From positions 1 through 24,908 of IMG/VR virus record IMGVR_UViG_3300008217_000082: a stretch of DNA of 24,908 bases, one strand, 5' to 3'. The notes beneath the pieces were generated by a model that was given only the letters and a program-made list of their open reading frames with translations, was not told the origin of the DNA and ran no database searches. Positions 688-24,297 of the stretch are shown in pieces. Numbering within the stretch: position 1 is the first letter of the stretch; every line of letters begins with the position of its first letter. Origin of the DNA: a virus. Made by a program: the position numbers and the translations under genes.

Positions 688-1875
688 TTATTTGTTCTTT
701 TCCAATAGGTTCGCCCTAGCCAATATGGAACTGAGGTTGCCTGGTGGTCTGTCAGGGATGATATTGAGGCGATCCTGTATTGCATCATATGAAGTTTCGA
801 TGATGAAAAAGGTTCTCAAATCATCGAAAGCTGGGGTCGATACGGACTCTGGAACAAGGTCTTGTAGGCGTATAACATCACCGGCACGAACACGCCATTT
901 GGGACATTCAATCAGGCTGCCATCAGCGGTTCCGGGTCCAGCATCAGTACAATAGATAGCACCGACAATATCAAATCCATTGTCCTGGCGAGGAAGGTTG
1001 CGTTCTATCAAAGCTGCATCACGCGCGTCATTCTGAGCATTCGCTGGAGTCCCAGTTGGCAGACTTAATACCATATCACGCCTCGGATAAATAGCCTGGC
1101 TATCCGTATTATTGGCCGCTGTTCCTTCAGTGCCACCAACGGATGGGATGATGCGGTTGCGAATGTGCTTACCTTGCTGTTTTAAGGACCCGTTGTCGGT
1201 ATCATCAAGCCAAACAAAAATATCAACCTGGGAAATTGTCCGTTTTGTTAGCACCGGGATACGGTCCTCATAGATATAAAAAACTGGCACACTATCATCT
1301 GTATCTGATAATGGCATCAATGTGTCAACTATAATATCCTGAGGATAGGCACGGGTTTCCAAATTCAAGCCTGCTAAATCGCGGCTGAAGGTTTCAATCT
1401 GAGGCCAAGTATCAGATACAGAATTGATATCAGGACACGATTTGTCTAGCAGTTCTTTGACTATATCATGGAGTTCATGGCCGCTTCCAGAAGTCCAATC
1501 TGTATTACCAGCATCTTCAGAATCATACATTTGGTCTCGACACGATGACCAATAACCAAAGGCTTCGAAATCGATGCCTAATGAACCTGTTCCCCACCGG
1601 AGAGCAACATCAAGGATGCGACCTTCCCAGATGGTCCGCTTTTCTTCCGTTATCAATAGATGCTTGTAATGTACGCCTCGTTGGTTGTCCGTATGCAGAT
1701 AAGACCAAGCGTCAACCAACGACATATCGATGGATATGTTGCAGGTCGAGAACCCTCCATGTATTCGCGTCGTAAATGTCAACCCACTGAAGCTATCTGT
1801 AAAGTCCGCTTCTAGCGCAGCTTTGTTGTAGTCATCGTACAACTGCACTCTCAGGTTGGGCCAATACCGTGCCAT
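688..1875 (-). CDS. Tail tip hub (Tal/gp27-like) protein, probable
   Basis: A 395-residue protein in the position normally held by the baseplate hub or tail-associated protein, directly after tape measure and distal tail genes. The N-terminal part (about 1-110) is beta-rich and resembles the opening of hub proteins, which start with a short strand-rich segment describing a frame or offset. The C-terminal end (about 330-395, FIIETSYDAIQDRLNIIPDR) also fits a hub-like beta domain. No lysozyme or peptidase motif was seen, so a separate enzyme would be needed for cell wall entry. Its ATG overlaps the stop of the upstream gene (TAATG), indicating coupled translation. Assignment rests mainly on gene order and general character; a phage structural protein is near certain, the hub role is inferred. 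Confidence 0.6.
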   Translation of the reverse strand: MARYWPNLRVQLYDDYNKAALEADFTDSFSGLTFTTRIHGGFSTCNISIDMSLVDAWSYLHTDNQRGVHYKHLLITEEKRTIWEGRILDVALRWGTGSLGIDFEAFGYWSSCRDQMYDSEDAGNTDWTSGSGHELHDIVKELLDKSCPDINSVSDTWPQIETFSRDLAGLNLETRAYPQDIIVDTLMPLSDTDDSVPVFYIYEDRIPVLTKRTISQVDIFVWLDDTDNGSLKQQGKHIRNRIIPSVGGTEGTAANNTDSQAIYPRRDMVLSLPTGTPANAQNDARDAALIERNLPRQDNGFDIVGAIYCTDAGPGTADGSLIECPKWRVRAGDVIRLQDLVPESVSTPAFDDLRTFFIIETSYDAIQDRLNIIPDRPPGNLSSILARANLLEKNK

Positions 1876-4319
1876 TAAGCTTCAGCAACCTGGAGGAACT
1901 TGGGCAAATACGTGATCCCTATGGTCCATTTATCAGCTATGTCGGCAGCTCCATCATCGGAAACAAAATAGACGCGAGTGCCTTCGGGATGAGCTTCTGG
2001 TGGACGACCTACCTGGTCAGCTGGGAAAGACTGGATAACATCAGCACTGTTCATTATGTACAAACCTTTCGGATTCGACCGGCTATCAGCCCAGACAATA
2101 TTGGTAGCAAGCGTTTTATTGAGATAAGCAAATCCATTATCGACCGGCATTAACATCACCCAATCGACCCAAACACGATCTGTATAGGAGGGGCCACTTT
2201 TTGGATACATGGCAAGTCGCAGGGTCAACGTACCGACAGTGCCACCTCCAGGTGTTGCCACTGGAGGAACTGTTAATGTACCTATATCAATGATATGTCC
2301 AGTAGCAACGTTGATTGTTGTATAGTCCGCGGCTACTGCTGGGTCTTTCGTCACTCCACCATAAGCATAGCCGATGCTCATGCCAAATTGGTCACCAGCA
2401 TCAGGAGCCGCGACACGGGCAAGCACTCTGTATAAACCCTCTGGTGGTGTTGTCACATCTTTGGTAACAACTGTAGGAGATGCAGCCGTTGCACCAAACA
2501 TGGCAGACCTAAACGCCGCTGCTACTTGACACCAAGAAGCGGACCCGTCAGGAGAGTGGGTCATAGTGGTTGTGGTGCTTGTAGCAATTTCATAGGACGC
2601 TGTTGATTCCGGTGCGCTATTCTCGCCGAGATCAACTTGCCCAGCACCGGGTGTCCAGGCACGACTATTGCTGGTGTCAGAAGACACCATATCTATTACT
2701 ATATCGCCAGCAACCGTGGTAACGGCAACCGATGGTGTAGTGCCAGAGGCTCCGTCTGCGGTTGCATTAGAACGACGTGGATTAACTGCATCTACGCCGT
2801 AATAACTCGATGCACGAACAGCGATTTCATCAATAGTGCTTGCAAAACTGACGACGATGTTATTACTGCCAGTATCTGGATTTACCATGTAGAATATGGT
2901 TGCCGAAGCATTGTCTTTGGTAGATGTATCTATTTTGGTCAGTGCATCGCCTGCATACGTAATACCTGATGGCCCAGATGTGGAGGTATCTTTGGTGGCA
3001 ACACCAACAACCAACAAGCGACTGCCTTGTGCCGTCCCAACGGTATGAGAAAGAGTTATGCTAGTCGTAGACGTTGCTACTCCACCAGACTGTGCATCGA
3101 AGATGGTGCCATTTATCATCTCACCAATATTGCCAGACGATGGCGAGAGGTCAGTTGGTTCATCGCTAAAGGTCGCAAAATCCTCACCCTCATGCCAAAT
3201 CACAACATCACGCTGTCTGGTGGCATGTCTGGCACCGCACCAAAAATCCGTATGCCCTTCAGCTTCAGTAGCTTTGATTTGTAGAGGACATGGTGCATCA
3301 CCAGGGATGTTCTCGATATCGATGAAGTTCAACTTTGATTGCTGTATCTTGCCACCATCCTCATTGTTGTTGTAGACATTGCGACTGCTTACCCAGGCTG
3401 TTGGTGCCGTGGAACCATCGCCAAGATATGCCAAATCCATGAGGACAATATCATCAGTATCGGTACCGCTTGCTGCACGAATTCCTGCGGTGATGGATGT
3501 ATGGCTAGAACTATCGCGAGTAACTGTGGCTGTCCGTTGGGTATTATCTGGAGTGAGGGCTGTTACTGTGGTGCCACCACTATCAGTCAGGAATATCTCG
3601 TATTCTTCACCTCCATTGATCTTGTACGTAAGAGAGAAGATATGCACTCCGCCAGTCATTGTCTGCACTTGTGAACACTGGAATACTGAGCTAGACGTAT
3701 TAAGGGTTATCTTGCCCCAGACCGCTCCCTCTGGAGCACCACTGGCTTCAACAGCTCTCGTACCATTTGCAACAGTCCAGTCAGCAAATAGAGTACCAGT
3801 GCTGCACTCAAAACCAGGATCGTCAAGATAATTTTCAAGGCTTTCTTCTGTCCCTTGAGCAAAAGGCTCACACTCCACAATAAGACGAGCATCGCGAAGC
3901 CGTGTGTGCTTTTGCAAGAACACGCCCATCATGGTAGGCCCAAGATCAAGGTCACCCTGAAGCACATTGAAATAAACCGGGTTAGTTGCACTATTCCACT
4001 GGAACTTGACCTGAACTTGGTTACCTACTCCCACAGTGCTAAACTCTTTAGCCTTCCGGAGCAACGTGTGGACAGACTGAATACGGGTAGCAAGATTATC
4101 TGTGCTGGAGCCTAAAACTTGGAAGTTGATCTGGACTGTACGGTTATTGTATGCAAGGGATATTAGGTCCGAACCATGCCGAAAAAGATTGTCGCCGGTA
4201 TAGCTCGTCCGTGAAGTCGGTGGTGGACATTGAAAGCCGTTTTCATTGACCCAGGTATTGCTGAGATCATTGCAATCGAATGTTGTAGTCCCGTCTGTTA
4301 ACTGGACTGTCCACGCCAT
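1875..4319 (-). CDS. Distal tail (Dit-like) protein with large adhesion domains
   Basis: An 814-residue protein right after the tape measure gene. Residues 1 to about 160 look like a distal tail protein: a beta-rich opening, then an NRTVQINFQVLGSS strand, a helical segment and RLIVECEPF, as in Dit hexamer rings. It is then extended by at least three beta-sandwich units: about 163-315 (starting YLDDPGFECSTG, resembling carbohydrate-binding or jelly-roll modules), about 408-600 (FDAQSGG ... LLVVGVAT ... VQAAFRS-type domain) and about 605-814 (VVTKDVTTPPEGLYRVLARV). Such extended Dit proteins usually carry receptor-binding modules. The ATG overlaps the tape measure stop (ATGA) and has GAGGAG six bases ahead. 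Domain limits are approximate; receptor binding is inferred. Confidence 0.65.
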   Translation of the reverse strand: MAWTVQLTDGTTTFDCNDLSNTWVNENGFQCPPPTSRTSYTGDNLFRHGSDLISLAYNNRTVQINFQVLGSSTDNLATRIQSVHTLLRKAKEFSTVGVGNQVQVKFQWNSATNPVYFNVLQGDLDLGPTMMGVFLQKHTRLRDARLIVECEPFAQGTEESLENYLDDPGFECSTGTLFADWTVANGTRAVEASGAPEGAVWGKITLNTSSSVFQCSQVQTMTGGVHIFSLTYKINGGEEYEIFLTDSGGTTVTALTPDNTQRTATVTRDSSSHTSITAGIRAASGTDTDDIVLMDLAYLGDGSTAPTAWVSSRNVYNNNEDGGKIQQSKLNFIDIENIPGDAPCPLQIKATEAEGHTDFWCGARHATRQRDVVIWHEGEDFATFSDEPTDLSPSSGNIGEMINGTIFDAQSGGVATSTTSITLSHTVGTAQGSRLLVVGVATKDTSTSGPSGITYAGDALTKIDTSTKDNASATIFYMVNPDTGSNNIVVSFASTIDEIAVRASSYYGVDAVNPRRSNATADGASGTTPSVAVTTVAGDIVIDMVSSDTSNSRAWTPGAGQVDLGENSAPESTASYEIATSTTTTMTHSPDGSASWCQVAAAFRSAMFGATAASPTVVTKDVTTPPEGLYRVLARVAAPDAGDQFGMSIGYAYGGVTKDPAVAADYTTINVATGHIIDIGTLTVPPVATPGGGTVGTLTLRLAMYPKSGPSYTDRVWVDWVMLMPVDNGFAYLNKTLATNIVWADSRSNPKGLYIMNSADVIQSFPADQVGRPPEAHPEGTRVYFVSDDGAADIADKWTIGITYLPKFLQVAEA

Positions 4320-6688
4320 CAGGAACTCCTCACTTGTTCCTGATTCTCGGCAATCTCTCCCAGACGTTCATTGAGACGATTAGCAACTTGATCCGCAAAT
4401 TGTCGAGCCTGGTGCATATTAGAAGCATCAGCACCATTGATATTGATAGTGGCGTTCACGGTCGTTCCATTTGGATGACTAGGCGAGTGACTGGAATGGG
4501 AAGCTCCGTTAGATATGTTTGAAGAGTTACTTCGGTCAGGACGGTAATGCCACAATCCTGTTGGTATATCCGGAATTATGGGCGGAACATATGAAGGGTG
4601 TTGTAGACCGCTCCTGACATTGGACGTGCCACCAGGGATGTTTGGTATATCAGGCAACAAAGGAATCGCATTGATCTCATCAATACGGGCGTTAAGAAAA
4701 TCAATGAGTTCCTCCATTGCCCGTTTAATAGGACTGGCAAAGTCAATGCTAAAAGCATCTTTGATACCACCCCAGACAGCATTCCAGTTCTCCTTAATAA
4801 AAAGGATTGCCTTAATCAATGCTCCGCCAGGGAGTAACCACCCCCATTTGCTTTCGTAGGCAGTTTGAATACCAGTACCGGCAGCACTAAAGGTTGTTTT
4901 TACCCCATCCCATATGGGCTTCCAATTATCCCTGATCCATAGAATAGCCTTAATCAATGTTCCGCCAGGGAGTAACCACCCCCATTTGCTTCCGTAGGCA
5001 GTTTGAATACCAGTACCGGCAGCACTAAAGGTTGTTTTTACCCCATCCCATATGGGCTTCCAATTATCCCTGATCCATATAATAGCCTTAATCAATGCTC
5101 CACCAGGGAGTAACCATCCGAAATTGCTTTCGTAGGCAAATTTAATACCAGCACTGGCAGTGCTAAAAGCATCTTTTGCCCCATCCCATATGGGCTTCCA
5201 ATTATCCCTGATCCATAGAATAGCCTTAATCAATGCTCCGCCAGGGAGTAACCATCCGAAATTGCTTCCGTAGGCAGTTTTAATACCATCACAAGCAGTG
5301 CTAAAGGTTGTTTTTGTCCCATCCCATATGGGCTTCCAATTATCCCTGATCCATAGAATAGCCTTAATCAATGTTCCGCCAGGGAGTAACCATCCGAAAT
5401 TGCTTTCGTAGGCAGTTTTAATACCAGCACTGGCAGTGCTAAAAGCATCTTTTACCCCATCCCATATGGGCTTCCAATTATCCCTGATCCATAGAATAGC
5501 CTTAATCAATGTTCCGCCAGGGAGTAACCACCCCCATTTGCTTTCGTAGGCAGTTTTAATACCATCACTGGCAGTTTCAAAAACTGTCTGTGTTCCCTTC
5601 CATGCAGCACCCCAAACATCCTTAAGAAAAAGGATTGCCTTAATCAATGCTCCACCAGGGAGTAACCACCCCAATTTGCTGCGGTAGGCTTCAGAAATGA
5701 AGTCAAAGGCTATGGAGAGGCCATGTATAATATCATCCCATTTCTTCCATATCACGATGCCAGCCAATACGACTGCGGCCAACGCCAGGATGATCAGCGT
5801 AATCGGCCCCATTGCAATCGTGAGTGCAGCAAAAGCACCGGTTAAAATCGTAATGGAAGCAACCAGGGTTGGAAGGATAAGAAGGAAAACACCAGCAGCG
5901 AATGACATTGTTCCAAGGGCAGCGGCTGCGATAACGATAACTTTGGTCAAGTGTGGATGTTCTTCCGCAAATGCGGTAACCTTTACGGCTACTTTAGTCA
6001 AAAAAGCAGCCATCTTTTCAAGCGCAGGTAACAATCCAATGACTATAGCCTGATGAACATCGCCCATTGAATTTTTTAGTTGGATAAATTTATCGGCATC
6101 AGCTTCGGCATGACCGGCAGCAACACCCATGACGGCAGCCAATCTTTCTGTGAAATCAGCTGTCGCATCTACAGATACACCGGTTGCGTCCGAAGTATTA
6201 GTCAAACCAACCATGAACTTCGATAAGGTTTCAGAAACAGTAGTGGCTGATCGCCCAGAGAATGCAGCGGCATCAAGGACAGCAGGGAGAGCCTGAAGAG
6301 CCTTTTCTTCATCCCCGATTACAGCAACTAACCGAGTGAGAACTTCACGTTGTTCTTCATCGCCGAAGTTCGTCTTTCTCTGTAGAGAAGTGATAGTGCG
6401 TTCAATCTCTTTTCTACTACTTGCATAAGATGAACCAACCCCTTGTAGTGCAACGTCGAGTTTACGAATACCTCTCTCTTGCTCATTAACACTTTTGATA
6501 CCTAATGCAAGCACACCCAACGTTGCAAGGCCGAAACCAGTCAAGGCAGTTCCGAACCCTCGTATCTTTCCAGCATTTTGTTTGATGCTGTCATTAAACC
6601 GTGCGAACCGGCCTTGAGCTTGATCAAGCGATTTCTTGGATTCATCCTTGACCTTTAGCAGCACTGATAGAGTGGCAATATCAGCCAT
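4319..6688 (-). CDS. Tail tape measure protein with seven 46-residue repeats
   Basis: A 789-residue protein and the classic tape measure candidate: it follows the tail chaperone gene, begins with a charged helical region (about 1-45), has a hydrophobic segment near 46-65 and a long membrane-like block near 245-315 (VIVIAAAALG to VVLAGIVIWKKW). The middle consists of seven tandem 46-residue repeats carrying GWLLPGGxLIKAI and NWKPIWDG motifs, and the C-terminus is helical with an Asn-rich linker. Tape measure proteins fill the tail tube, set its length and may form a channel in the host membrane. ATG at 6688 has AAAGGAG four bases ahead. Length would suit a tail on the order of 120 nm by the usual 0.15 nm per residue rule. 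Confidence 0.93.
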   Translation of the reverse strand: MADIATLSVLLKVKDESKKSLDQAQGRFARFNDSIKQNAGKIRGFGTALTGFGLATLGVLALGIKSVNEQERGIRKLDVALQGVGSSYASSRKEIERTITSLQRKTNFGDEEQREVLTRLVAVIGDEEKALQALPAVLDAAAFSGRSATTVSETLSKFMVGLTNTSDATGVSVDATADFTERLAAVMGVAAGHAEADADKFIQLKNSMGDVHQAIVIGLLPALEKMAAFLTKVAVKVTAFAEEHPHLTKVIVIAAAALGTMSFAAGVFLLILPTLVASITILTGAFAALTIAMGPITLIILALAAVVLAGIVIWKKWDDIIHGLSIAFDFISEAYRSKLGWLLPGGALIKAILFLKDVWGAAWKGTQTVFETASDGIKTAYESKWGWLLPGGTLIKAILWIRDNWKPIWDGVKDAFSTASAGIKTAYESNFGWLLPGGTLIKAILWIRDNWKPIWDGTKTTFSTACDGIKTAYGSNFGWLLPGGALIKAILWIRDNWKPIWDGAKDAFSTASAGIKFAYESNFGWLLPGGALIKAIIWIRDNWKPIWDGVKTTFSAAGTGIQTAYGSKWGWLLPGGTLIKAILWIRDNWKPIWDGVKTTFSAAGTGIQTAYESKWGWLLPGGALIKAILFIKENWNAVWGGIKDAFSIDFASPIKRAMEELIDFLNARIDEINAIPLLPDIPNIPGGTSNVRSGLQHPSYVPPIIPDIPTGLWHYRPDRSNSSNISNGASHSSHSPSHPNGTTVNATININGADASNMHQARQFADQVANRLNERLGEIAENQEQVRSS
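4721..5686 (-). repeat. Seven tandem 138-bp repeats inside the tape measure gene
   Basis: The sequence ggagtaacca recurs at 4831, 4969, 5107, 5245, 5383, 5521 and 5659, exactly 138 bases apart, in frame (46 codons). Each unit begins Y(E/G/R)S and contains GWLLPGG(T/A)LIKAI and a WxxxWxG motif. The five central copies are nearly identical; the first (KDVWGAAWKG) and last (KENWNAVWGG) have diverged. Variable spots (KW or NF; DAFSTASAGIK, TTFSAAGTGIQ or TTFSTACDGIK) are reassorted between copies, which suggests unequal crossing over or gene conversion rather than simple divergence. Confidence 0.97.
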
Positions 6689-6943: not shown

Positions 6944-7466
6944 TAGTCACCGTTACGGTCTGCGATATATCGGGCAAGAGCTGTGTACCGTTTTTTAGTT
7001 CATCATCCGATTGGTCATTTATAGACTGCACCATGAGATAAGCCAGTTCATCATTGGACAGGTCTTTGAACGCTGATGGATTGTTCCAAGGTTTTGGAAG
7101 AAGCTGACCTTGGAGGTCTGTCCAATTCCAATCAATAATGCGTCTTGCTAGAGACTCACAAGTTGCATCAATCCAATCAGTAGTTTCCTCCGCATCAATG
7201 TCTTTGCCACTCATACCTTGAAGCCTACTCAGCATAATCGATTCCCCAACGGTTATCACGGGAATATATTTGATCCATTCGCCGATGTGTACATAGGATA
7301 ACTGGCCTTCCTTAACAATCGCACCATCTGCAATGATCCTCCCGATGCTGATAGTGCAATCATCCGATTTACGACATATTGGAGGGATTTTCCAGTTAGG
7401 TTGTGGTGGGACGATCTCGCTATCCACCACAACCGCTGGCACTTGACTTTGATGTTCTTGCTGCAT
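6918..7466 (-). CDS. Tail assembly chaperone (gpG-like)
   Basis: A 182-residue protein placed between the tail tube genes and the tape measure gene, the usual place for the tail assembly chaperone. It is mostly helical and acidic, with a proline-rich start and a short central segment likely to be the tape-measure-binding domain (WIDATCESLARRIIDWNW, about 97-114). The end TPNPQTLL is encoded by the slip-prone C runs, so a minor longer product is expected. Start ATG at 7466 has AAGGAG six bases ahead. Function is assigned from position and the frameshift arrangement; the sequence itself is not one I recognise closely. Confidence 0.8.
   Translation of the reverse strand: MQQEHQSQVPAVVVDSEIVPPQPNWKIPPICRKSDDCTISIGRIIADGAIVKEGQLSYVHIGEWIKYIPVITVGESIMLSRLQGMSGKDIDAEETTDWIDATCESLARRIIDWNWTDLQGQLLPKPWNNPSAFKDLSNDELAYLMVQSINDQSDDELKNGTQLLPDISQTVTVTTPNPQTLL
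6931..6944 (-). promoter_or_regulatory. Putative -1 ribosomal slip site, two C5 runs
   Basis: On the coding strand the region reads ACCCCCAACCCCCAG, with zero-frame codons ACC CCC AAC CCC CAG. A CCC codon in the P site can slip back one base and re-pair perfectly at either run, entering the open -1 frame; the zero frame stops at 6918, five codons after the second CCC-CAG. It is not a textbook X-XXY-YYZ heptamer because each run has only five Cs. Confidence 0.75.
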
Positions 7467-7504: not shown

Positions 7505-7912
7505 TTAAGCTCTGGTCGGTGCGGCTCCATCAGCAGCAGCGGAGCCACCATTGTGCCGCAAACTGAGCGAATACTTGATAGCGTCGTTTACCGAGGCTGT
7601 GATTGAATAGCTGGTTACGATAGCGAAACCGTTATACCCTGTGGAGCCATCCGGCTCGAAGTCCCATTCTTCGCCTTCCAAACCCAACTCACCGAAGATC
7701 GTTGCATCGCCCTGGGACGATGCAGGGTCCCAAGCACCGTCTGCATCCATCGTAGCTGTAGGTTTGCCAGCTAGGAAGTTCTGCCACGAATCCGCAAAGG
7801 CTGTGATATCTGCTTCCGGAACACTGAAGTTGACCGTAGCGGAACTAAGTTCATCTTCTAACGCCACTGAATCAAAAGAGAAATCCGCATCTTTACCATG
7901 AGTTCTTGCCAT
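7505..7912 (-). CDS. Tail tube protein paralogue C
   Basis: A 135-residue protein, third of three tandem paralogues. It opens MARTHGKD, then has ADITAFADSWQNFLAGK (about 34-50) and WDPASSQG, the pattern of small siphophage tail tube proteins: strand, a DITAFAD helix start, then a loop and a second strand pair. Its first 75 residues match paralogue B closely, while the second half (about 76-135) has different loops (GLEGEEWDFEPDGSTGYN). Start ATG at 7912 has GGAGG six bases ahead. The tube is a stack of rings, so a single gene normally suffices; it may be the main subunit because it sits next to the chaperone, but this cannot be decided from sequence. Confidence 0.8.
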   Translation of the reverse strand: MARTHGKDADFSFDSVALEDELSSATVNFSVPEADITAFADSWQNFLAGKPTATMDADGAWDPASSQGDATIFGELGLEGEEWDFEPDGSTGYNGFAIVTSYSITASVNDAIKYSLSLRHNGGSAAADGAAPTRA

Positions 7913-7964
7913 TATGCACCTCCATAATTTGCCCTCTGAGGGCTTAAATTGGATTCTAGGGCTA

Positions 7965-8390
7965 TTACGACACTACCCTGGTAGTTGCACCGGAATTTTG
8001 GATAGAAGCCGAATAACTGGCTTTATCCCCGACAGGAAAAGAAATCGAAAGAGACGCTACCAGAGAACCGGTTGGGGCTGATGCTGCACATTGATACTCC
8101 GGATCATTGGTATCCGGCCCAGAACCAGTAGGGTCTAAAACGGTTGCAACTACTCCACCACCCACGGCATCAAATAGAGTATTGACACCCTGGCTGGCTG
8201 CTGGATCAAGAGAACCTCCAATATCAATCGTGACGTTTTTCTTGCCAGCCAGAAAGTTTTGATATATATCTGCAAAAGCCGTAATGTCGGCTTCAGCAAC
8301 CGCGAAGTTGATTGTCGCCGTATCGAGTTCATCTTCAATAGCCACTGCGTTGAAGCTGAAATTCAAGTCTTTGCCGTGCGTCCTCGCCAC
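7965..8390 (-). CDS. Tail tube protein paralogue B
   Basis: A 141-residue protein sharing MARTHGKD, ADITAFADIYQNFLAGK and GGSLDPAASQG with paralogue C, and the DITAFAD, LxGK and LDPAS motifs with paralogue A. The second half (GGGVVATVLDPTGSGPDTN ...) differs from both neighbours. The start is GTG at 8390, supported by a perfect GGAGG six bases ahead and by the conserved second to eighth residues. Tail tube or tube-like initiator or terminator ring subunit is the likely role. Confidence 0.8.
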   Translation of the reverse strand: MARTHGKDLNFSFNAVAIEDELDTATINFAVAEADITAFADIYQNFLAGKKNVTIDIGGSLDPAASQGVNTLFDAVGGGVVATVLDPTGSGPDTNDPEYQCAASAPTGSLVASLSISFPVGDKASYSASIQNSGATTRVVS

Positions 8391-8435
8391 TCTTCACCTC
8401 CACATTTAATCTAATGATCCGGATCAACCATGTCG

Positions 8436-9188
8436 TCAGTCATTATATTCTCGAACGCCGAAAGCTATCACAATGCTAAACGCCCTACTACCACCACCAG
8501 ACACAGTGGCCACCGCCCTCCAATATGTATCAGTGACCGTAGCTGTAATTTCTTGGACTTCATAGGTGGCTGTACTGGTCTGATTGAGAGTGGTAAAGGT
8601 AGCCCTGGTAGTTTCACCGCCTGCTGAAGCATTAGCATCACTCTCTATGGTAACCACCAGATCATTGCTTCCTGATCCTGATGGAGCAGCTAGCAATCGC
8701 AGGACTGCAACACCACGTTGACTGGCACCGATCGCTCCCTGTTGGTACTTGGTGCCAGTAGCAGTGGACGAAATAGCTGTAGCAGTATAGAGGATGATGG
8801 ATCGGTTTAAGGCATTATCACCCCGCCAGTTAACATCAAGAGTGATCGCTTCACCAATCGTGGATGCCCTGGCTTGATCGCCTGGATTAGTCAAACCTTC
8901 ATATCCGAAGGAACCAGCTACTGTATCTTGATAAATTCCCAATTGGCGGTCTACTGTCGTAAGGTCAGCAAACATTTCAATATCATAGCCACCAGAGGCG
9001 GGGTCAAGTAGACCACCTATGCTGGCTGTGAATCCTGGCTTGCCTTCCAGGTAGGTCATATCAGTATCAGCAAATGCAGTGATGTCAACTAACGCATTGG
9101 TTACGTCAATTGTACAAACATTGGATACACCAGAAAAATCAAATTCATCTACATAATGGGCAACTGATTTAGCATGGATTCTAGCCAT
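8436..9188 (-). CDS. Tail tube protein paralogue A, with C-terminal extension
   Basis: A 250-residue protein, first and longest of the three tube paralogues. It opens MARIHAKS and has VDITAFADTDMTYLEGK (about 34-50) and GGLLDPASGG, matching the smaller two. Residues about 120-250 are a further beta-rich region with Ser/Thr/Ala-rich strands (SIILYTATAISSTATGTKY; ITATVTDTYWRAVATVSGGG), which could be an Ig-like domain displayed on the tail surface or an enlarged tube barrel. ATG at 9188 has GAGG nine bases ahead. Found upstream of B and C in the same operon. Confidence 0.75.
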   Translation of the reverse strand: MARIHAKSVAHYVDEFDFSGVSNVCTIDVTNALVDITAFADTDMTYLEGKPGFTASIGGLLDPASGGYDIEMFADLTTVDRQLGIYQDTVAGSFGYEGLTNPGDQARASTIGEAITLDVNWRGDNALNRSIILYTATAISSTATGTKYQQGAIGASQRGVAVLRLLAAPSGSGSNDLVVTIESDANASAGGETTRATFTTLNQTSTATYEVQEITATVTDTYWRAVATVSGGGSRAFSIVIAFGVREYND

Positions 9189-9190
9189 AA

Positions 9191-9487
9191 TTATGTACCT
9201 CGCGACCGTTCATTTTTCTTACGTCTGAGCGGGTTGTCTCGTTTCTTTTTTATCGCAGCAGCACTCCGCACCAGTAAGGCTTTTTGTTCTGGAGACCCAT
9301 CATAGACTGCAATGGCTCCGGTGCTAAAAAGTCTTTCAGCATTAACACTTTCATCGCCATCCAGTTGGAACCTTTGCCCTGCCTCAACCTTGGTAGAACT
9401 CGGAATAGAACCTGGAGCATTCAGTATGTTTAGACGAACAAGTGCAATCAACCATTCTTCAGCTAATTCGTTCTGCGAATCCTCCAT
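9191..9487 (-). CDS. Small tail-region protein with LDGDE motif, copy 2
   Basis: A 98-residue protein whose central part (GQRFQLDGDESVNAERLFSTGAIAVY, about 36-62) matches a pattern in the gene just before it. The form is that of small phage proteins with a Gly-x-x-Phe-x-Leu-Asp strand followed by a helix and a Gly-Ala turn. The C-terminus is strongly basic (KKKRDNPLRRKKNERSRGT). Start ATG has AAGGA eight bases ahead and overlaps the previous gene by 29 bases. I do not know its role; it stops two bases before the first tube gene's start, so it belongs to the tail operon. Confidence 0.65.
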   Translation of the reverse strand: MEDSQNELAEEWLIALVRLNILNAPGSIPSSTKVEAGQRFQLDGDESVNAERLFSTGAIAVYDGSPEQKALLVRSAAAIKKKRDNPLRRKKNERSRGT

Positions 9488-9707
9488 CGATCAATTCCTT
9501 CTCAGTTAGTGGTTCGTCACCGTCTAGGCTGAATACATCACCATGCGAAATTATCAAGAATGTGCTAGAACTAGAAGGCCCATTCATAAGCCGGAACTTT
9601 TTCAATGCCTTTAACACAATACTAGGATATGTACCCAAGGTCTGACGTTGAACTTCTCCTTGCTTGCTCAGCTGTTCCAGGCGATCAGCTGCATCCTGAG
9701 CATTCAT
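9459..9707 (-). CDS. Small tail-region protein with LDGDE motif, copy 1
   Basis: An 82-residue protein beginning MNAQDAADRLEQL. The start at 9707 is chosen because AGGAG lies eight bases ahead; a longer frame to 9743 would run back over the preceding stop and has no such site. Its C-terminal GDVFSLDGDEPLTEKELIDG (with GFAERI after it) resembles the next gene's motif, so the two look like an ancient duplication that now overlaps by 29 bases. The role is unknown; position between tail terminator and tube suggests a connector-to-tail accessory protein. Confidence 0.65.
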   Translation of the reverse strand: MNAQDAADRLEQLSKQGEVQRQTLGTYPSIVLKALKKFRLMNGPSSSSTFLIISHGDVFSLDGDEPLTEKELIDGGFAERIS

Positions 9708-9717
9708 AGTTATACTC

Positions 9718-10143
9718 CTACGGCTCATCAGCCCAGATATCATAGAATGCTCCTACGTGGAACCAGCGTTCACGTCCAACGTGTTCAGAGAAGATCACAT
9801 CCCGCACTTTCTCGCAATAAAGGAAAGTATGATTTTCAATGCTCAAAGTAGCGCGATCCAGAAGATTGATAATCTGGCTCTGGATATCCTGGCCTGGTTT
9901 AGGCCATCCATCATCCGTAACAGCCTTCACAAGGTAACGAACTGTGTGGTATTTCTCGGTAGGACTGAAGGATCGAGAGGAATCCACATTGTCAACGAAG
10001 TTAAAGACCACGAATGGTGGTGCAGTCTCTTCCGGTGCTATCCAGTTATGCACTCCACCTGTTGCAAGACTAGTAACAGCAGATACATTTAAGGCTGTGA
10101 AAAGGCCCTTATCGCAAGCCTGCACTATATTGTCAGTCGACAC
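9718..10143 (-). CDS. Tail terminator / completion protein (DUF3168-like)
   Basis: A 141-residue protein with the arrangement of tail terminator proteins (HK97 gp10-neighbour or SPP1 gp17 type): an N-terminal helix (IVQACDKGLFTALNV), a strand (PPFVVFNFVDNVDSSRSF), then YHTVRYLVKAVTDDGW, a helix and a final strand pair ending in FYDIWADEP. Such proteins cap the tube and join it to the neck. The chosen start is GTG at 10143, since GAGGAG is ten bases ahead; longer ATG starts at 10167/10170 have no site. It overlaps the end of the gp10-like gene by 11 bases. Family membership is judged by size, fold pattern and position. Confidence 0.75.
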   Translation of the reverse strand: MSTDNIVQACDKGLFTALNVSAVTSLATGGVHNWIAPEETAPPFVVFNFVDNVDSSRSFSPTEKYHTVRYLVKAVTDDGWPKPGQDIQSQIINLLDRATLSIENHTFLYCEKVRDVIFSEHVGRERWFHVGAFYDIWADEP

Positions 10144-10480
10144 TGGTGAAAAGCTCCTCAATCTCATCATGAAATCGCGGCTTGACAGACAGGAGAGCTG
10201 GCACCATGTAAGGACGGGCTGGCATGTTGCGAGTGCCGAGTTCAAGGAAATGGGCGTAATCGGTGCCGGTGTTAACCTGACCACCGATTCCCATTGTATC
10301 TAATTCAGTGTGAATCGCTGCACGGTTTCTACCAGTATCGACAGGAGACCTCTTTTTAGCCTCAGCTTCAACCCTAAATAGGTTGCGCCGCACAATTTTC
10401 TTTAACTCCGGATGGACCGTATCTATTAATTTCTGTAGCTTCCGGTCATCAAGTTCGCTGCGAAAACTGACACTAATCAT
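10133..10480 (-). CDS. HK97 gp10-like neck / tail-joining protein
   Basis: A 115-residue protein with the hallmark of the HK97 gp10 family: a helix (LKKIVRRNLFRVEAEAKKRSP) followed by VDTGRNRAAIHTE, then TDYAHFLELGTRNMPARPYMVPAL. The VDTG and Y-x-x-F-x-E-x-G-T-x-x-x-P-A-R-P-Y/F motifs are highly typical. This protein sits at the head-tail junction, between head closure and tail terminator genes. The ATG overlaps the stop of the upstream gene (TAATG), so translation is coupled. Confidence 0.92.
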   Translation of the reverse strand: MISVSFRSELDDRKLQKLIDTVHPELKKIVRRNLFRVEAEAKKRSPVDTGRNRAAIHTELDTMGIGGQVNTGTDYAHFLELGTRNMPARPYMVPALLSVKPRFHDEIEELFTSVD

Positions 10481-19335: not shown

Positions 19336-20649
19336 TTAAGACCTGACTGCAAGCTCTACGAAGGGGCTGAGAGTGTTGCTGCCATTTTGTGGGGTCAGCG
19401 CAGAGATCATCCAGGGCTGACCATCGACTCGCTTTACAAACCTCCAGCAAATCTCGTCAGTGGTGAACTGCTGGTGCATTGACGAATCGATCCGCAAGTC
19501 CATTCGGTCACCGATCAGGTACTGGCTAAAGTCGGCCAACATGATGTCCCCGGCCGTTCCGAGAGTCTGGGCATGTTCGGTGTAAACGATTGGCCTACCG
19601 AGTAGGGTATCGGGCATGTCTGGCACTGAGGACTGCACCCACATGGCTGCTCCACCAGTACCAACGGCTAGGTTCATGGTCATTAACTGAGGGATAGTAT
19701 CCGAGTTGGCTACCCATACAGCCCTACCATAAGAAGTCGGCATGATTCTAGACCGCATCTTCACCACGTTCTCATAAACAACTGTGGTAGCAGCCTGAGA
19801 TGTTTCCTTAGCTACCGTGACACGGGCAGGTGAGTTCTGAATACCGAGTGGCTGACCTGCACCGTTGCCGGAGAGGAAACCGTCATCTTCGAACCAGCCT
19901 ATGGCTCGACCGAACAGCTGGAACAGTAGAGCTTCCAACCCAATGGCCGAGTCCTGCAAAAGTTCAGTGGTTGAATAAGTGAGACCGACGAGCTTCCGGC
20001 TTCGGAGTTCAACCGATCCCAAAGTGGGCTGAGAGGCGGTAAGGGTTGCGCCTTCGCCTACCCAGTAAGCTTGTACGCCACCGAAGACGGTGGATGCACG
20101 GCTGCTTTCATCAATCCTGGGAATCTTGACAAGATCGCCAGCCATTGGGATGACAGTAGCTCTGGGACGAACCACTGCTTCCTCCATAGCATTCTGGAGC
20201 AGTTGGGCGCGAAACTCATCAGGGACAAGGAATCCACCATCTGCGCCGATCCCTTCGCTGAGTCCGGTGGCTCTGGTTTCCACAATCCCTATATTCTGGC
20301 TTCCTTCAAGTCTGGGGTCATGTCGCCCAAACTGAGAATTGTGAACCGATACAAGGTACTCGCCAAAGGATTTAAACTTGTCACCGTTTTCGTACGGACG
20401 ACCGGTCGCATGGTCAACAGGGCCAGGAACAAATCTTTGGAGCGGATCGTTGGCTGGAGTAGGTGCGCGCCGACCACTGCGGTAATCATCGTGTTCTTCA
20501 CGACTCCGCTGACCGGCAGCATCCAAAGCATCCTTGATCTGTTGCTCCACGTTCGGGGAGAGGTTCTTGTTGGCCTTGTCTACCGCTTCGGCACTGGCCT
20601 CCTCGATCGCTCTGCGGACTGACTCCGGTAATTGTGCCTGCATGTTCAT
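19336..20649 (-). CDS. Major capsid protein, HK97 fold
   Basis: A 437-residue protein starting MNMQAQLPESVRRAIEEASA. An N-terminal helical part (about 1-110) is the delta (scaffold) domain, normally cut off by the prohead protease. The body matches HK97 capsid proteins: GGFLVPDEFRAQLLQNAMEE, RATVIPMAGDLVKIPRID, AYWVGEGATLTASQPTLGSV, ELRSRKLVGLTYSTTELLQD, IGWFEDDGFLSGNGAGQPLG, YGRAVWVANSDTIPQL, RPIVYTEHAQTLGTAGDIML and DFSQYLIGDRMDLRIDSS. The ATG at 20649 overlaps the protease stop (ATGA) with AGGAG seven bases ahead; the longer frame to 20688 would begin with an Arg-rich stretch and lacks support. Confidence 0.96.
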   Translation of the reverse strand: MNMQAQLPESVRRAIEEASAEAVDKANKNLSPNVEQQIKDALDAAGQRSREEHDDYRSGRRAPTPANDPLQRFVPGPVDHATGRPYENGDKFKSFGEYLVSVHNSQFGRHDPRLEGSQNIGIVETRATGLSEGIGADGGFLVPDEFRAQLLQNAMEEAVVRPRATVIPMAGDLVKIPRIDESSRASTVFGGVQAYWVGEGATLTASQPTLGSVELRSRKLVGLTYSTTELLQDSAIGLEALLFQLFGRAIGWFEDDGFLSGNGAGQPLGIQNSPARVTVAKETSQAATTVVYENVVKMRSRIMPTSYGRAVWVANSDTIPQLMTMNLAVGTGGAAMWVQSSVPDMPDTLLGRPIVYTEHAQTLGTAGDIMLADFSQYLIGDRMDLRIDSSMHQQFTTDEICWRFVKRVDGQPWMISALTPQNGSNTLSPFVELAVRS

Positions 20650-21938
20650 ACCGCTGCTCCTTCTTCTTCGGACTCGACTTCTTCCCAATGGGCAAAAAAT
20701 TGGTCGATTTCAGCTTGGGCTTCTGCGCCATTTCCGTTATCTTCTTGCTGCAATTCAGCAAAGAACTCGTCAATTATGATTTGCTCATCGTCTTTGGCCT
20801 GTTTAATTTCTTGAACAGATGCAAGAGTTCGTGCTTGCAGTATTTTATCCATGATCGACTTCGGTAAGTATCGGGTCAAGTTTTCTACAGAGGTGAGGGT
20901 CAAGAGTTCAACTACGGATTCCATCGTGGTTGCCAAAGACTCAGTCAAGCTGGGTTCTTCTTGACCATTGCGCTCCCAAGGTGGTGCGCCTTTATCAAAG
21001 TCCTTGTAATGCCTGGCGATATGGGACTTAACCTCAATTAGATCGTTATCGGAGATGTCGTCGTATTTACCACCTGCAATATCAGCAGCAACTGCCCGAA
21101 CGCCTTTCCAAACGGTGGCATGGTCGTCGCTGGCATCATGATGGATACCACGGTAGGATCGTTTCCTACGCGGTTTTCGCCCTTCAACATAAACAGCCAT
21201 GATCTCTAATTCATCAATCTCAGACTTAGCCACTTCATCGCCTTGCGACCATTCAACATCTTCGGGAGCCAGTGGATGCTTCTTATAAGGGATAGCATCC
21301 TTTTGCTCAAGATCATCGATGTCGCCAGGGCTAGTGTAAGAGAACGCCTTATTGGACGGTGTCCAAAGGCCAGCTAGGTTCAGCACATAGTTGCTGATAG
21401 ATTGTGCTTCATCAATGGACACTGCGCCGAGTGTAACAGCTTGCATAAGAGCATTGGCATTGGCAGGAACAGGCACTGCGGAAAGCTCTAGCAATTCCTG
21501 TTTTAGAAATATCTTGGGCATGAAAAATTGGGAGGGGTCATTGTCAGCTTCGTCGAGGAATTTCCACTCTTTGGGGATGAATCCTACTGAGACGGCAGCT
21601 AAGTAACCGCCTTTATATAGTTTATATATGGTGTCAGCGAATTCATATTCGGCAGATGTGGCAAACTGGATATCAAAGATAAGTTTGCCGTTCTCCGAGG
21701 TGATTACTTGGGCTTTCCCTATGGGAGGTGCGAAGTAATCGTGCGCCCACAAAAACACTGGGTTCTTGATAAAGTTGTCAAGCTCCCAGCCTTCAGCGAG
21801 GATACGATCACCGCCACGGTCTTGGCTTTCATCTGAACCAATAAAACGAAGCACTCGGTTCTTCTCTTCGCCCTCTTGCTTTACATTGTAGGAAAAAGAG
21901 AGCTGAACCTTCTCGCTCGACACATTAGCTTCAATCAT
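20646..21938 (-). CDS. Prohead protease (HK97 U35 type) with accessory domain
   Basis: A 430-residue protein. Residues about 20-170 form the HK97 prohead protease: a GSDESQDRGGDRILAEGWEL opening, His66 in FLWAHDY, Ser117 in AVSVGF, and a following LKQELLELSAVPVPANANAL, the family's catalytic neighbourhood. Residues about 214-320 (AIPYKKHPLAPEDVEW, YRGIHHDASDDHATVWKGV, IARHYKDFDKGAPPW) match an accessory domain seen after such proteases and sometimes alone. The rest is acidic and helical and could serve as scaffold. The start at 21938 has AGGAG five bases ahead; the TTG at 22028 lies upstream of the likely promoter's transcription start. The protease processes the capsid during maturation. Its stop overlaps the capsid ATG. 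Confidence 0.9.
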   Translation of the reverse strand: MIEANVSSEKVQLSFSYNVKQEGEEKNRVLRFIGSDESQDRGGDRILAEGWELDNFIKNPVFLWAHDYFAPPIGKAQVITSENGKLIFDIQFATSAEYEFADTIYKLYKGGYLAAVSVGFIPKEWKFLDEADNDPSQFFMPKIFLKQELLELSAVPVPANANALMQAVTLGAVSIDEAQSISNYVLNLAGLWTPSNKAFSYTSPGDIDDLEQKDAIPYKKHPLAPEDVEWSQGDEVAKSEIDELEIMAVYVEGRKPRRKRSYRGIHHDASDDHATVWKGVRAVAADIAGGKYDDISDNDLIEVKSHIARHYKDFDKGAPPWERNGQEEPSLTESLATTMESVVELLTLTSVENLTRYLPKSIMDKILQARTLASVQEIKQAKDDEQIIIDEFFAELQQEDNGNGAEAQAEIDQFFAHWEEVESEEEGAAV

Positions 21939-22018
21939 GGAAGCTCCTAATGTTACTCCCGTGACTACGATACTGCTGCTATGGGTCTCCAATAATAAGG
22001 GAGGTATAAGTTGTATAA

Positions 22019-22048
22019 AAAATAGCAAATTGCCTTACAACAAGTCAA
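22019..22048 (-). promoter_or_regulatory. Candidate promoter for the protease-capsid block
   Basis: On the minus strand TTGACT (22043-22048) and TATTTT (22019-22024) are separated by 18 bases. This is five of six and four of six matches to sigma-70 boxes. It lies after the two hairpins that follow the portal gene and before the protease start at 21938, so transcription would begin near 22012. A likely promoter, unproven. Confidence 0.45.
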
Positions 22049-22158: not shown

Positions 22159-24297
22159 TTATAAAATCACAGGAACAACAGTACACCGACAACTAGGATG
22201 GGCAGGAGGGTGGCTGAACCCACCAGGGAAATTCTTATGGAGATCAACGACGACACCATTCAAAGCTTCACAGATGGAGTCTTGCCGTCCATCCAAAGAA
22301 GTCAGCCATTCCATACCATCTACTACACCGGATTCGATATATCCCTCAACGGTGCCACGATTAGACATCGTAATGACTTCAGTACGGGCAATGTTTCGTG
22401 ATCGCCGCACAGATGCTTCGGACATGACGGAACGTATCCTCGATTGTAATGCCGGAATACCTTCTTCTGCGGTGAATCCTGCTAACAAAGTAGTAACGAC
22501 AGCTTTTCTCGTTATCTCATTGATTCCAACAATAGCTTCCCCAACATGTTTTCTAATCCAAACCATTGCTGTGGCATTTAATTGGACTTTCCGGATGCCA
22601 TCCGTATGTGGTTGTTCAGGATGTACCAATGCATCACCAGCATCTAAGCCTTGCTCAAACACGAAGATAAGCATGGGGAGAAGCTTTTCTTCCATGATTT
22701 CTGTAAATTCATCTAATGGAAAGATCAGGTCATCAATAGATGCAATGCCTTGTATACGTCGAACCAGATCATCTGCTTGATCTTCGAACAACTGTTGAAG
22801 AACCTTCACGACAGGGGCTTCCATTGCTTCTGTATCAGTTACAAATTGATGCCAGATGATTTCCTTCTGTTCAGTGGTGTATCGGCTCTTCGGCATCACC
22901 GGCAATGATTCATCATCATTGGTTGGCGCAGAATCAGATGAACGCCGATAAATAGTTTCTTCAGCACCGTTCAAAGCGCGGTTGATCATGCGTACCATGC
23001 CACCTTCAAACACATTCCGGTCCTCACCGATAGCCATCATCGGAGGTGGACGGTCCGCTGGGTTAACTGGCACTTCTATCAGTCCAGCAGCACGTAGATA
23101 AACGTCGCCTCCTGGTACCTGGTCGAAGCCTAATAACTTGCGATATTCGTTCACGGTAACAGCACCGGACGACAACTCCCTAGATGCTATGTTGACTTGC
23201 TCTACCCTGTTTTGCGGAGCAGGGTCGGTGAAATCAAGTTCAATATTACCACCAAACATAGGCACCAGAGTCATGTTGAGCTTGTTCCTGATACGTCGAA
23301 GCCTTGTTCTAAGCACATGCCTTCCATATACATTCTCGGCTTCTCGCGCATTGGCAAGATTGACGTTTTCAGACAGCCCCATAATGTGTTGAGGAACGCC
23401 GTACAAACCAAGAATATTGTCACGGCCAAGCTTCCTAAGATTAAGATGATCCATATCACGCGGACTTAGCGAAACGGCCTGATATTCCAGGTCACCAGTA
23501 AGCACGGCAATAGAGTGGGAAGCACCCCAGCCGCTGTACTGTTGTTTCCACATCTGCTTGATCTCTTCTTTTTGCTCTGGAGTGGTACGACCAGATTTGG
23601 TTCTTAGGATGCCTTCGGGTGTCGCAGAGTTAAATAGCATATTTCTGTTCCACTCTGTCGCAAACCGTTCGGTATCTAGTTCAGTTGCCATCGGAGCTAC
23701 GGGAGCCTGTCCACGGTACATATCTACAGGATTGGGGGTCTTGAAATGGATAACCTGTCCGATCTCTAAACGTTGACGAAAGTTCTGTAAGCGATACTCG
23801 TAGTGATCGATAAAATCAGTGGGCGAAGGCACCACAGTCATCCGACTGGGTGGAACGATCCATATTTCAGTTGGGATTCCTCGGTTGTCACGGTTCAGAA
23901 TCCAGAAGCTTTCACCAGGTAAATCCATATACATCTGATGAAGCTCTCGTACTTCATCGCCAGATTGGAAAGGATTGGCCTTACCTTCCAGCAATTCTAA
24001 AAGCGGATGGGATTCAAGCTGGCCCTGGCGTTCTCCATTACGGATGCTGTATAACTGCCAGTCAACTTCTGATACTGACGATGCGATCTTGGACACTACG
24101 GCATAAAGCCATCCAATCGAACCGAAGGCTTTTGTATAATCCTCGGCCCTCATGCGCGGGGGAATCTTCATCGTCATGTTGGTGGACATGGGAACTGGTA
24201 TGGATCGGAGGATAGGATTGGGAGAAGTAGCTAAGGCAAGGGATGCCTTATTCACCATTGATGGAACGAAGGATTTGATACCCGTGACAATGCTCAT
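22159..24297 (-). CDS. Portal protein fused to Mu-F-like head morphogenesis domain
   Basis: A 712-residue protein combining two proteins that are usually separate. Residues about 40-430 are an HK97-type portal: AFGSIGWLYAVVSKIASSVS, ESFWILNRDNRGIPTEIWIV, IGQVIHFKTPNPVDMYRGQA, LFNSATPEGILRTK, DILGLYGVPQHIMGLSENVN-like. Residues about 470-712 are a Mu gpF/SPP1 gp7-type domain: helical region, then RNIARTEVITMSNRGTVEGY, DGMEWLTSLDGRQDSICEAL and HPPAHPSCRCTVVPV, whose A-R-T-E and C-R-C motifs are diagnostic. The portal is the DNA gate; the gpF part is a minor head protein, sometimes injected with DNA. ATG has AAGGGG six bases ahead. First gene of the late operon. Confidence 0.93.
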   Translation of the reverse strand: MSIVTGIKSFVPSMVNKASLALATSPNPILRSIPVPMSTNMTMKIPPRMRAEDYTKAFGSIGWLYAVVSKIASSVSEVDWQLYSIRNGERQGQLESHPLLELLEGKANPFQSGDEVRELHQMYMDLPGESFWILNRDNRGIPTEIWIVPPSRMTVVPSPTDFIDHYEYRLQNFRQRLEIGQVIHFKTPNPVDMYRGQAPVAPMATELDTERFATEWNRNMLFNSATPEGILRTKSGRTTPEQKEEIKQMWKQQYSGWGASHSIAVLTGDLEYQAVSLSPRDMDHLNLRKLGRDNILGLYGVPQHIMGLSENVNLANAREAENVYGRHVLRTRLRRIRNKLNMTLVPMFGGNIELDFTDPAPQNRVEQVNIASRELSSGAVTVNEYRKLLGFDQVPGGDVYLRAAGLIEVPVNPADRPPPMMAIGEDRNVFEGGMVRMINRALNGAEETIYRRSSDSAPTNDDESLPVMPKSRYTTEQKEIIWHQFVTDTEAMEAPVVKVLQQLFEDQADDLVRRIQGIASIDDLIFPLDEFTEIMEEKLLPMLIFVFEQGLDAGDALVHPEQPHTDGIRKVQLNATAMVWIRKHVGEAIVGINEITRKAVVTTLLAGFTAEEGIPALQSRIRSVMSEASVRRSRNIARTEVITMSNRGTVEGYIESGVVDGMEWLTSLDGRQDSICEALNGVVVDLHKNFPGGFSHPPAHPSCRCTVVPVIL

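Follow-up and report, generated by a model that had tools for sequence, protein, structure and literature searches.

Three tandem tail tube paralogues in a group of marine bacterial viruses, matched within genomes in a proposed inter-ring stacking loop: a possible mixed siphophage tail tube

Tail tubes or tube-like assemblies with more than one kind of tube domain are known from several systems. In SPP1, a plain tube subunit, gp17.1, is described as mixed 3:1 with gp17.1*, a form bearing an extra domain and generated by frameshifting (PMC8718954). This resembles the arrangement proposed below, in which plain subunits would be mixed with one carrying an additional domain. However, the extended form of SPP1 arises from a frameshift of one gene and displays an FN3 domain, whereas here the genes are separate and the additional domain is jelly-roll-like. 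In T5, two tube domains of common origin are present in one tube (PMC5717097), a situation comparable to that of the triplet, but pb6 fuses both domains and forms trimeric rings while the copies considered here are separate. Paralogous tube proteins can also share a ring, as in the Hcp heterohexamers of Bacteroides type VI secretion (title of PDB entry 9vne; PMC13323088); these belong to an effector-secreting contractile system, whereas the triplet belongs to a siphophage tail.

More than one tube gene per genome can likewise be found in annotated phages. Two major tail proteins are mentioned in the announcement of Gordonia cluster DJ (PMC10652937) and in the text on Microbacterium phage Damascus and other clusters (PMC11080557), and one major tail subunit gene is named in the text on Laroye (PMC5513430). 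A long gene followed by a short one was found in the Arthrobacter phages Ottawa, Waltz, Shrooms and Salgado, in Microbacterium phage ValentiniPuff and in Microcystis phage Mae-JY09. The labels of these genes vary between major tail, minor tail and hypothetical protein, four isolates having the long gene annotated as a major tail protein; in Sinorhizobium phage phi3LM21, a single major tail protein is annotated. Such long/short pairs (PHROG 9522 plus PHROG 10528, matches run on Ottawa and Mae-JY09) have the same gene order and the same two-part long protein as the triplet and, in the actinophages, a tape measure gene close downstream, as in the triplet. They comprise two tube genes where the triplet comprises three, and the records state no mechanism. 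A scan of IMG/VR with the long protein confirmed at least 240 loci; among the best 80, which were kept, the long-then-short order is present in 76, and the pair frequency is to be read as a lower bound. Three others of these 80 are cut off at most 124 bases past the long gene; the remaining one (L209) has its short tube gene interrupted after about 65 codons, from about position 3366, possibly by an inserted element or intron. The initial annotation held that a siphophage tube normally needs a single tube protein; three are indeed unusual, but the long and short pair is common in IMG/VR and annotated in actinophages.

The window, namely the whole 24,908-base virus record (IMG/VR) that was analyzed, harbors on its minus strand portal, protease, capsid and connector genes together with tail genes, as identified by PHROG and Pfam matches; all the tail and head genes discussed below are read on that strand. 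Three consecutive ORFs, here designated T1, T2 and T3, occupy positions 7505-9188 (Table 1), in agreement with the initial annotation, which had described them as three tandem, diverged tail tube paralogues. They are separate ORFs, each with its own start, unlike an SPP1-type decorated form produced by frameshifting of the same gene. As in the long/short pairs, a long two-part gene directly precedes a short gene, but there are two short genes here, and T2 and T3 each form their own clade.

Table 1. Features of the tube gene module and of its surroundings in the window.
Feature	Position	Strand	Evidence
T1, long tube paralogue, 250 aa	8436..9188	-	PHROG 9522 over residues 2-244, E 1.2e-21; model pLDDT 77.4
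T1 C-terminal beta-sandwich/jelly-roll-like domain (modelled), residues ~129-250	8439..8804	-	Structure matches 3j4u_H and 8cjz_A
T2, short tube paralogue, 141 aa, GTG start	7965..8390	-	PHROG 10528, E 1e-7; 48% identity with T3
T3, short tube paralogue, 135 aa, proposed main tube protein	7505..7912	-	PF06199, PHROG 9522, PHROG 10528
T1 residues 32-50, beta2-beta3 loop region, proposed inter-ring stacking loop	9039..9095	-	Alignment with T3; same-genome matching
T2 residues 32-50, beta2-beta3 loop region	8241..8297	-	Alignment with T3; same-genome matching
T3 residues 32-50, loop between strands 22-30 and 52-61	7763..7819	-	Model; same-genome matching
T3 residues 101-115, beta5-beta6 turn region, proposed receiving face	7568..7612	-	Same-genome matching, stronger in pairs
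Tail assembly chaperone candidate, 182 aa	6918..7466	-	Position; AAAAAAC at 6990-6996; open -1 frame
Tape measure protein, 789 aa	4319..6688	-	PHROG 28, E 8.5e-29
Tail terminator/completion-like gene, upstream of the module	9718..10284	-	PF11367, 25.2 bits (cut-off 24.5)

The module is flanked upstream by the terminator-like gene and downstream by the chaperone-like and tape measure genes, as expected from the position of a major tail protein. In the chaperone candidate, AAAAAAC is located near the gene end, from where the -1 frame is open almost to the start of the tape measure gene; in one relative (L011), for which only the frame was examined, an alternative frame is open at the same place. 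Siphophage tail assembly chaperones are usually arranged in this way, as a short gene with a -1 slip ahead of the tape measure gene, and chaperones are annotated in this layout in Ottawa. The candidate matches no PHROG or Pfam family, and the call is made from its position and the frameshift. With 0.15 nm per tape measure residue and 4 nm per ring, the tape measure protein predicts a tail of about 118 nm with about 30 rings, i.e., about 180 subunits if the rings are hexamers. Within its gene, a tandem repeat of 138 bases in about 6.3 copies (4809-5680, minus strand) encodes a 46-residue unit, and the protein contains seven GWLLPGG motifs; in two relatives (L005 and L006) it differs slightly from that of the window.

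Several other features of the neighborhood can be noted. Just upstream of T1, two small overlapping genes (9191-9487 and 9459-9743, minus strand) are similar to one another (33% over 45 residues) and have separate counterparts in L009, L010 and L011, thus forming a second paralogue pair beside the tube genes. Following the tape measure gene, two large genes (688-1875 and 1875-4319, minus strand) probably encode tail tip proteins, judging from their position; they have no PHROG or Pfam match and no meaningful similarity to two minor tail proteins of Salgado. The portal protein, with a C-terminal Mu F-like domain, is encoded by a single 712-aa gene (22159-24297, minus strand). The capsid and protease ORFs (19336-20688 and 20646-22028, minus strand) overlap and match the C- and N-terminal parts of PHROG 617, respectively, so the two may be fused in relatives. 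The counts of promoter- and terminator-like sites in the window are close to those of shuffled sequences.

Regarding homology, all three proteins open with MAR-x-H-x-K (MARIHAK in T1, MARTHGK in T2 and T3) and share, at the same distance from the start, DITAFAD (residues 35-41), L-x-G-K (47-50) and (L/W)DPA(S/A) (61-65), all of which had been noticed initially; the differing second halves also noted are borne out by alignment for T2 versus T3. Identity amounts to 48% over 136 columns between T3 and T2 (E 1e-37), 33% over 99 columns between T3 and T1 (E 3e-12) and 41% over 70 columns between T2 and T1 (E 7e-11), with profile-profile probabilities of 99.2% for T1/T3 and 100% for T3/T2. Given these pairwise E-values and profile comparisons, the similarity is not due to chance. 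All three match major tail families in PHROG: T1 matches family 9522 over its whole length, family 10528 is the best match of T2, and T3 matches 9522 (E 4.6e-11) and 10528 (E 5.9e-11) nearly equally, covering nearly the whole length of the latter, which has the same length as T3. T3 exceeds the cut-off of PF06199 (24.5 versus 23.8 bits), and T2 stays below those of the Pfam tube families. Among the family members at E <= 0.01, PF06199 is found in 18 of 37 for T3 and in 2 of 36 for T2, PF18906 is found in 9 of 36 for T2, and none of the 38 T1 members has a Pfam match. A weak match to SAM_HAT_C in 7 of 37 T3 members was taken as chance. Comparison of sequence profiles with solved structures gave no tube match; three weak unrelated rows from one such comparison were disregarded.

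Structure models were made for T1 and T3 as single chains, T2 being judged by sequence, and both models are tube-like. The T1 model (pLDDT 77.4) has a low-confidence stretch at residues 34-47. Its first ~130 residues (5-132) align with tube proteins, namely the monocin tube 8qhs_A (Z 9.8, rmsd 6.2, 124 aligned) and lambda gpV 7t4f_A (Z 9.2, rmsd 5.2, 120 aligned). The extra beta-rich C-terminal part described initially is likewise present in the model, residues ~128-247 being modelled as strands. This part resembles 3j4u_H, from a Bordetella phage capsid entry whose title mentions jelly-rolls (Z 10.6, rmsd 2.7, 114 aligned, model range 83-246), and 8cjz_A, from a Carin1 capsid entry (Z 9.3, rmsd 2.7, 116 aligned); the former chain is presumably the cement protein of the Bordetella phage. 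T1 is thus modelled as an N-terminal tube domain followed by a C-terminal jelly-roll-like domain, the latter being less conserved than the former (mean pairwise identity 0.516 versus 0.654). The model of T3 is of low confidence (pLDDT 58.8), but all seven of its Foldseek matches at E <= 0.001 are chains of tail structures (monocin, gene transfer agent and phage R4C), two of them titled tail tube, and it aligns with 6tba_50 of the gene transfer agent over 117 residues (Z 9.7, rmsd 4.3). The tube beta-sandwich with an alpha-helix and a long beta2-beta3 loop is recognizable in both models, with low confidence for T3, in which residues 32-50 lie between strands 22-30 and 52-61. Parts of residues 32-50 are among the lowest-confidence stretches of both models.

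The best Foldseek match of T1 is a chain of SPP1 Dit (2x8k_C, E 4.4e-6), and PHROG, Pfam and comparison with the Salgado minor tail proteins revealed no Dit after the tape measure gene. It could therefore be asked whether T1 is a Dit-like distal-tail hub, with a ring domain and a beta-sandwich domain, and not a tube subunit. This seems highly improbable, since upon realignment the Dit chain (Z 8.1, rmsd 4.7) is exceeded in Z by both 8qhs_A, albeit at the higher rmsd of 6.2, and 3j4u_H, T1 is homologous in sequence to the short tube genes, its counterpart is the annotated major tail protein of the four isolates, and its gene precedes the tape measure gene, whereas a Dit gene is expected after it. 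From family matches, predicted fold and gene position, T1, T2 and T3 are siphophage tail tube (major tail) proteins, as had been proposed, all three having PHROG matches and T1 and T3 tube-like model folds.

The initial annotation had suggested looking for the same triplet in related genomes. Four viral scans yielded 149 loci, i.e., 150 sequences with the window, which were scanned with profiles of T1, T2 and T3. All three genes are present in 130 of these, corresponding to 51 distinct triples, the better count since several loci share one contig; 42 of the triples are full length and nine are not. The order T1-T2-T3 is constant in all 51, and no sequence out of 150 has two genes of one class. 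Among the 20 sequences lacking the full set, 17 are cut by the end of the contig or locus beside the missing gene, and three are distant pair phages (L151 and the overlapping L085 and L086) with a long T1-like gene and a short gene. All ten longer records (19-43 kb) show exactly three matches in a single cluster; the terminase profile PF03354 had no match in these ten records, where a profile miss is not proof of absence. In a tree of 23 genomes, each paralogue groups as a single clade, with bootstrap support of 100% for T1, 100% for T2 and 96% for T3 (200 replicates). T3 changes least (mean pairwise identity 0.806), compared with T2 (0.663) and the tube domain of T1 (0.654). Taken on these sequences, the triplet is an old, fixed module in a group of marine bacterial viruses. 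In the phage collection, no near-identical DNA was found, tblastn of T1 gave no match and tblastn of T3 gave two (phi3LM21 and Mae-JY09); in bacterial and archaeal genomes, none of 280 stretches fitting a pattern was confirmed as a relative of T3. The gap between T2 and T3 is short in the window and most relatives; in one relative the two genes are separated by about 1.2 kb (L008:5590-6773) that contains two ORFs, of 155 and 126 aa. The pair genes do not resolve in the tree into a clean long clade and a clean short clade; in Mae-JY09 and in L151, the long gene groups with the short gene of the same genome. Long branches are flagged there, and the pattern may reflect within-genome matching or separate origins.

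If the paralogues are older than the split of the genomes and evolved independently, the T3 of a given genome should be no closer to its T2 than the T3 of another genome. For the triplets, genomes more than 90% alike were dropped, reducing 42 to 23, and stricter sets of 12, 9 and 7 were also used. At residues 32-50, T2/T3 identity is 0.826 within genomes versus 0.676 between genomes in the set of 23, and the difference is found again in the more separated sets (0.855 versus 0.645 with 12, 0.865 versus 0.637 with 9 and 0.872 versus 0.655 with 7). Smaller excesses are seen at residues 1-17 and 18-31, not all of which are contact elements, and at residues 101-115 (0.328 versus 0.265, 12 genomes; the turn segment was bounded at 101-125 in the 23-genome comparison and at 101-115 in this later one). 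No excess is found at residues 76-100. The own T3 is the best or tied-best partner of T2 for the loop in 10 of 23 genomes, compared with 3 of 23 for residues 76-100. With T1, the excess in the loop is weak but repeated (0.467 versus 0.423 for T1/T2 and 0.481 versus 0.441 for T1/T3); for the beta5-beta6 turn of T1/T3 it is not significant in the triplets.

The same comparison in long/short pairs, leaving out Shrooms and the four of the 80 loci without a detected short gene, was based on 83 pairs, thinned to 51, 27 and 17 by removing those more than 90, 70 or 55% alike. In the 17 pairs less than 55% alike, identity within and between genomes is 0.712 versus 0.460 for the loop, 0.616 versus 0.388 for beta5-beta6 and 0.399 versus 0.275 for beta2; residues 71-105 show no excess (0.199 versus 0.199), and smaller excesses are present at residues 1-22, 55-70, 106-115 and 131-143. 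Within-genome matching is strongest in the beta2-beta3 loop, the beta2 edge and the beta5-beta6 turn. Judging from the tube fold, the segments showing none (residues 76-100 of T3 and 71-105 of the pairs) would lie on the outer face, where the baseline identity is low, leaving less room for matching to show.

In known tubes, the beta2-beta3 loop is described as mobile in monomers and, SPP1 and 80alpha apart, as the largest contact between rings; in T5, tubes no longer form once it is deleted (review, PMC8718954). The same review assigns beta2 of the gene transfer agent to the ring edge. In JBD30, a hinge loop fits between loops of the following disc (PMC11445458), and these receiving loops would correspond to the beta5-beta6 turn here. 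By analogy, the stacking loop, the beta2 edge and the beta5-beta6 turn would be the contact elements of the proteins studied.

The initial annotation had left three options for the triplet: a mixed tube, separate rings at tip and neck, or surface-exposed variants used for adhesion. With rings confined to given positions, T3 would make the tube, and T1 and/or T2 one or a few special rings at its head-proximal or distal end. Tube paralogues located near the baseplate exist in contractile systems, T1 is the paralogue nearest the neck genes and has weaker translation signals on average, and one face of an end ring would still need matching. However, an end ring needs one face only, whereas the pairs match in both the loop and the beta5-beta6 turn, which suggests that long subunits have short neighbors on both sides rather than forming one end ring; moreover, T2 closely resembles T3 in the loop and at residues 18-31. 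Rings specific to the tip or neck are thus less favored than a mixed tube and appear rather unlikely, the matching of the loop, beta2 and the turn within genomes pointing to the mixed tube.

How far the matching reflects gene conversion can be judged from synonymous positions. T2/T3 identity at fourfold sites is raised within genomes at residues 32-50 (0.497 versus 0.295) and 51-75 (0.436 versus 0.281); gene conversion between T2 and T3 has therefore very likely happened, and this test rules out pure selection as the explanation of their match. Permutation p-values, which treat the genomes as exchangeable without a phylogenetic model and are thus optimistic, and which are uncorrected for the many segments and thresholds tried, indicate no significant rise at the fourfold sites of the loop for T1/T2 (p 0.10) and T1/T3 (p 0.16), but codon identity at shared loop residues is raised for both (0.505 versus 0.400, p 0.0025, and 0.476 versus 0.411, p 0.025, respectively), so that conversion involving T1 may also have occurred. 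In the pairs, most segments show raised codon matching, with beta3 and beta5-beta6 the highest, and shared codon usage may be behind part of it.

It could thus be argued that the paralogues are mere duplicates kept alike by gene conversion, with no separate role and no selection on contacts, a reading to which the raised synonymous identity of T2/T3 at residues 32-75 and the raised codon identity of T1 with its paralogues and in the pairs lend some weight. It is nevertheless improbable, as all three genes are kept in 51 of 51 distinct triples, T1, T2 and T3 each form an old clade, the proteins match unevenly along their length and the loop fourfold sites of T1 are not significantly raised. Conversion accounts for some of the matching between T2 and T3 and possibly for some of the remainder; pure conversion throughout is disfavored, the fourfold sites and the codon identity of T1 pointing in different directions. 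The contributions of conversion and selection overlap and are not cleanly separable in these data.

On these grounds, the reading judged to stand slightly better than even is that of one mixed tube, with T3 as main subunit, T2 as second subunit and T1 as decorated minority, whose contacts are kept compatible by conversion and selection. T1, T2 and T3 would be three subunits of one siphophage tail tube, T3 most likely being the main one and T2 a second one fitting the same lattice, whereas T1 would be scarcer and combine the same tube domain with a jelly-roll-like domain pointing outward. All three would polymerize around the same tape measure protein, as suggested by the contact elements staying compatible within each virus; gene conversion would maintain part of this compatibility, probably together with selection, while the rest of the proteins diverges. 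Mixed rings are conceivable because beta2, part of the ring edge, is also matched in the pairs, and the data would fit either mixed rings within the tube or alternating rings.

Concerning the abundance of the subunits, median anti-Shine-Dalgarno energies are -11.6 for T3, -10.2 for T2 and -9.1 for T1, and GTG starts are found in 2 of 37, 3 of 39 and 21 of 38 genes, respectively, T1 starts without a clear motif having been placed by a sequence pattern. T3 being the most conserved and having the strongest start signals on average, and T1 the weakest, T1 is probably the minority subunit. This does not apply to every genome: in the window, T1 starts with ATG and T2 with GTG, the energies of T2 and T3 are equal, and in one relative (L037) the signal of T1 is stronger than that of T3. 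A more specific version of the mixed tube, which remains tentative and on the unlikely side, is that T2 and T3 share rings, e.g., in alternation around the ring as an unfused equivalent of T5 pb6, with rings or single subunits of T1 interspersed, their contacts being kept interchangeable by concerted evolution while the outer faces specialize, the same rule applying to the pairs.

As for the role of the additional domain, the idea of surface-exposed variants used for adhesion fits T1 through its C-terminal domain, but does not fit T2 and T3. In its full form, in which this domain would be an adhesin and the choice between T2 and T3 would tune the surface, it can be given hardly any weight: the lower conservation of the domain and the lack of within-genome matching in the presumed outer-face residues are in line with it, but none of the T1 members has a Pfam match at the threshold given above, and nothing links expression to conditions. 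In the mixed tube favored here, the jelly-roll-like domain would decorate the outside of the tube.

Two tube genes in one genome were already known from annotators, as was a mixed plain and decorated tube from SPP1. What is new is the presence of three tube genes, two of them short, and the matching of paralogues from the same genome in the stacking loop; no description of a set of three tube genes, or of contact elements being matched, was found in the open-licence literature, which holds few subscription journals. Tail tubes are usually modelled as strictly symmetric helices of one protein, whereas two or three tube genes kept together and matched in their contact elements predict copolymers, which could blur symmetric cryo-EM averages. 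If this is true of the widespread long/short pairs, many of the siphophage tubes now regarded as homopolymers would in fact be copolymers. Since isolated Arthrobacter phages carry the two-gene form, the prediction is open to direct testing, and the triplet and the pairs would provide a natural experiment on how several subunits of a filament are kept compatible.
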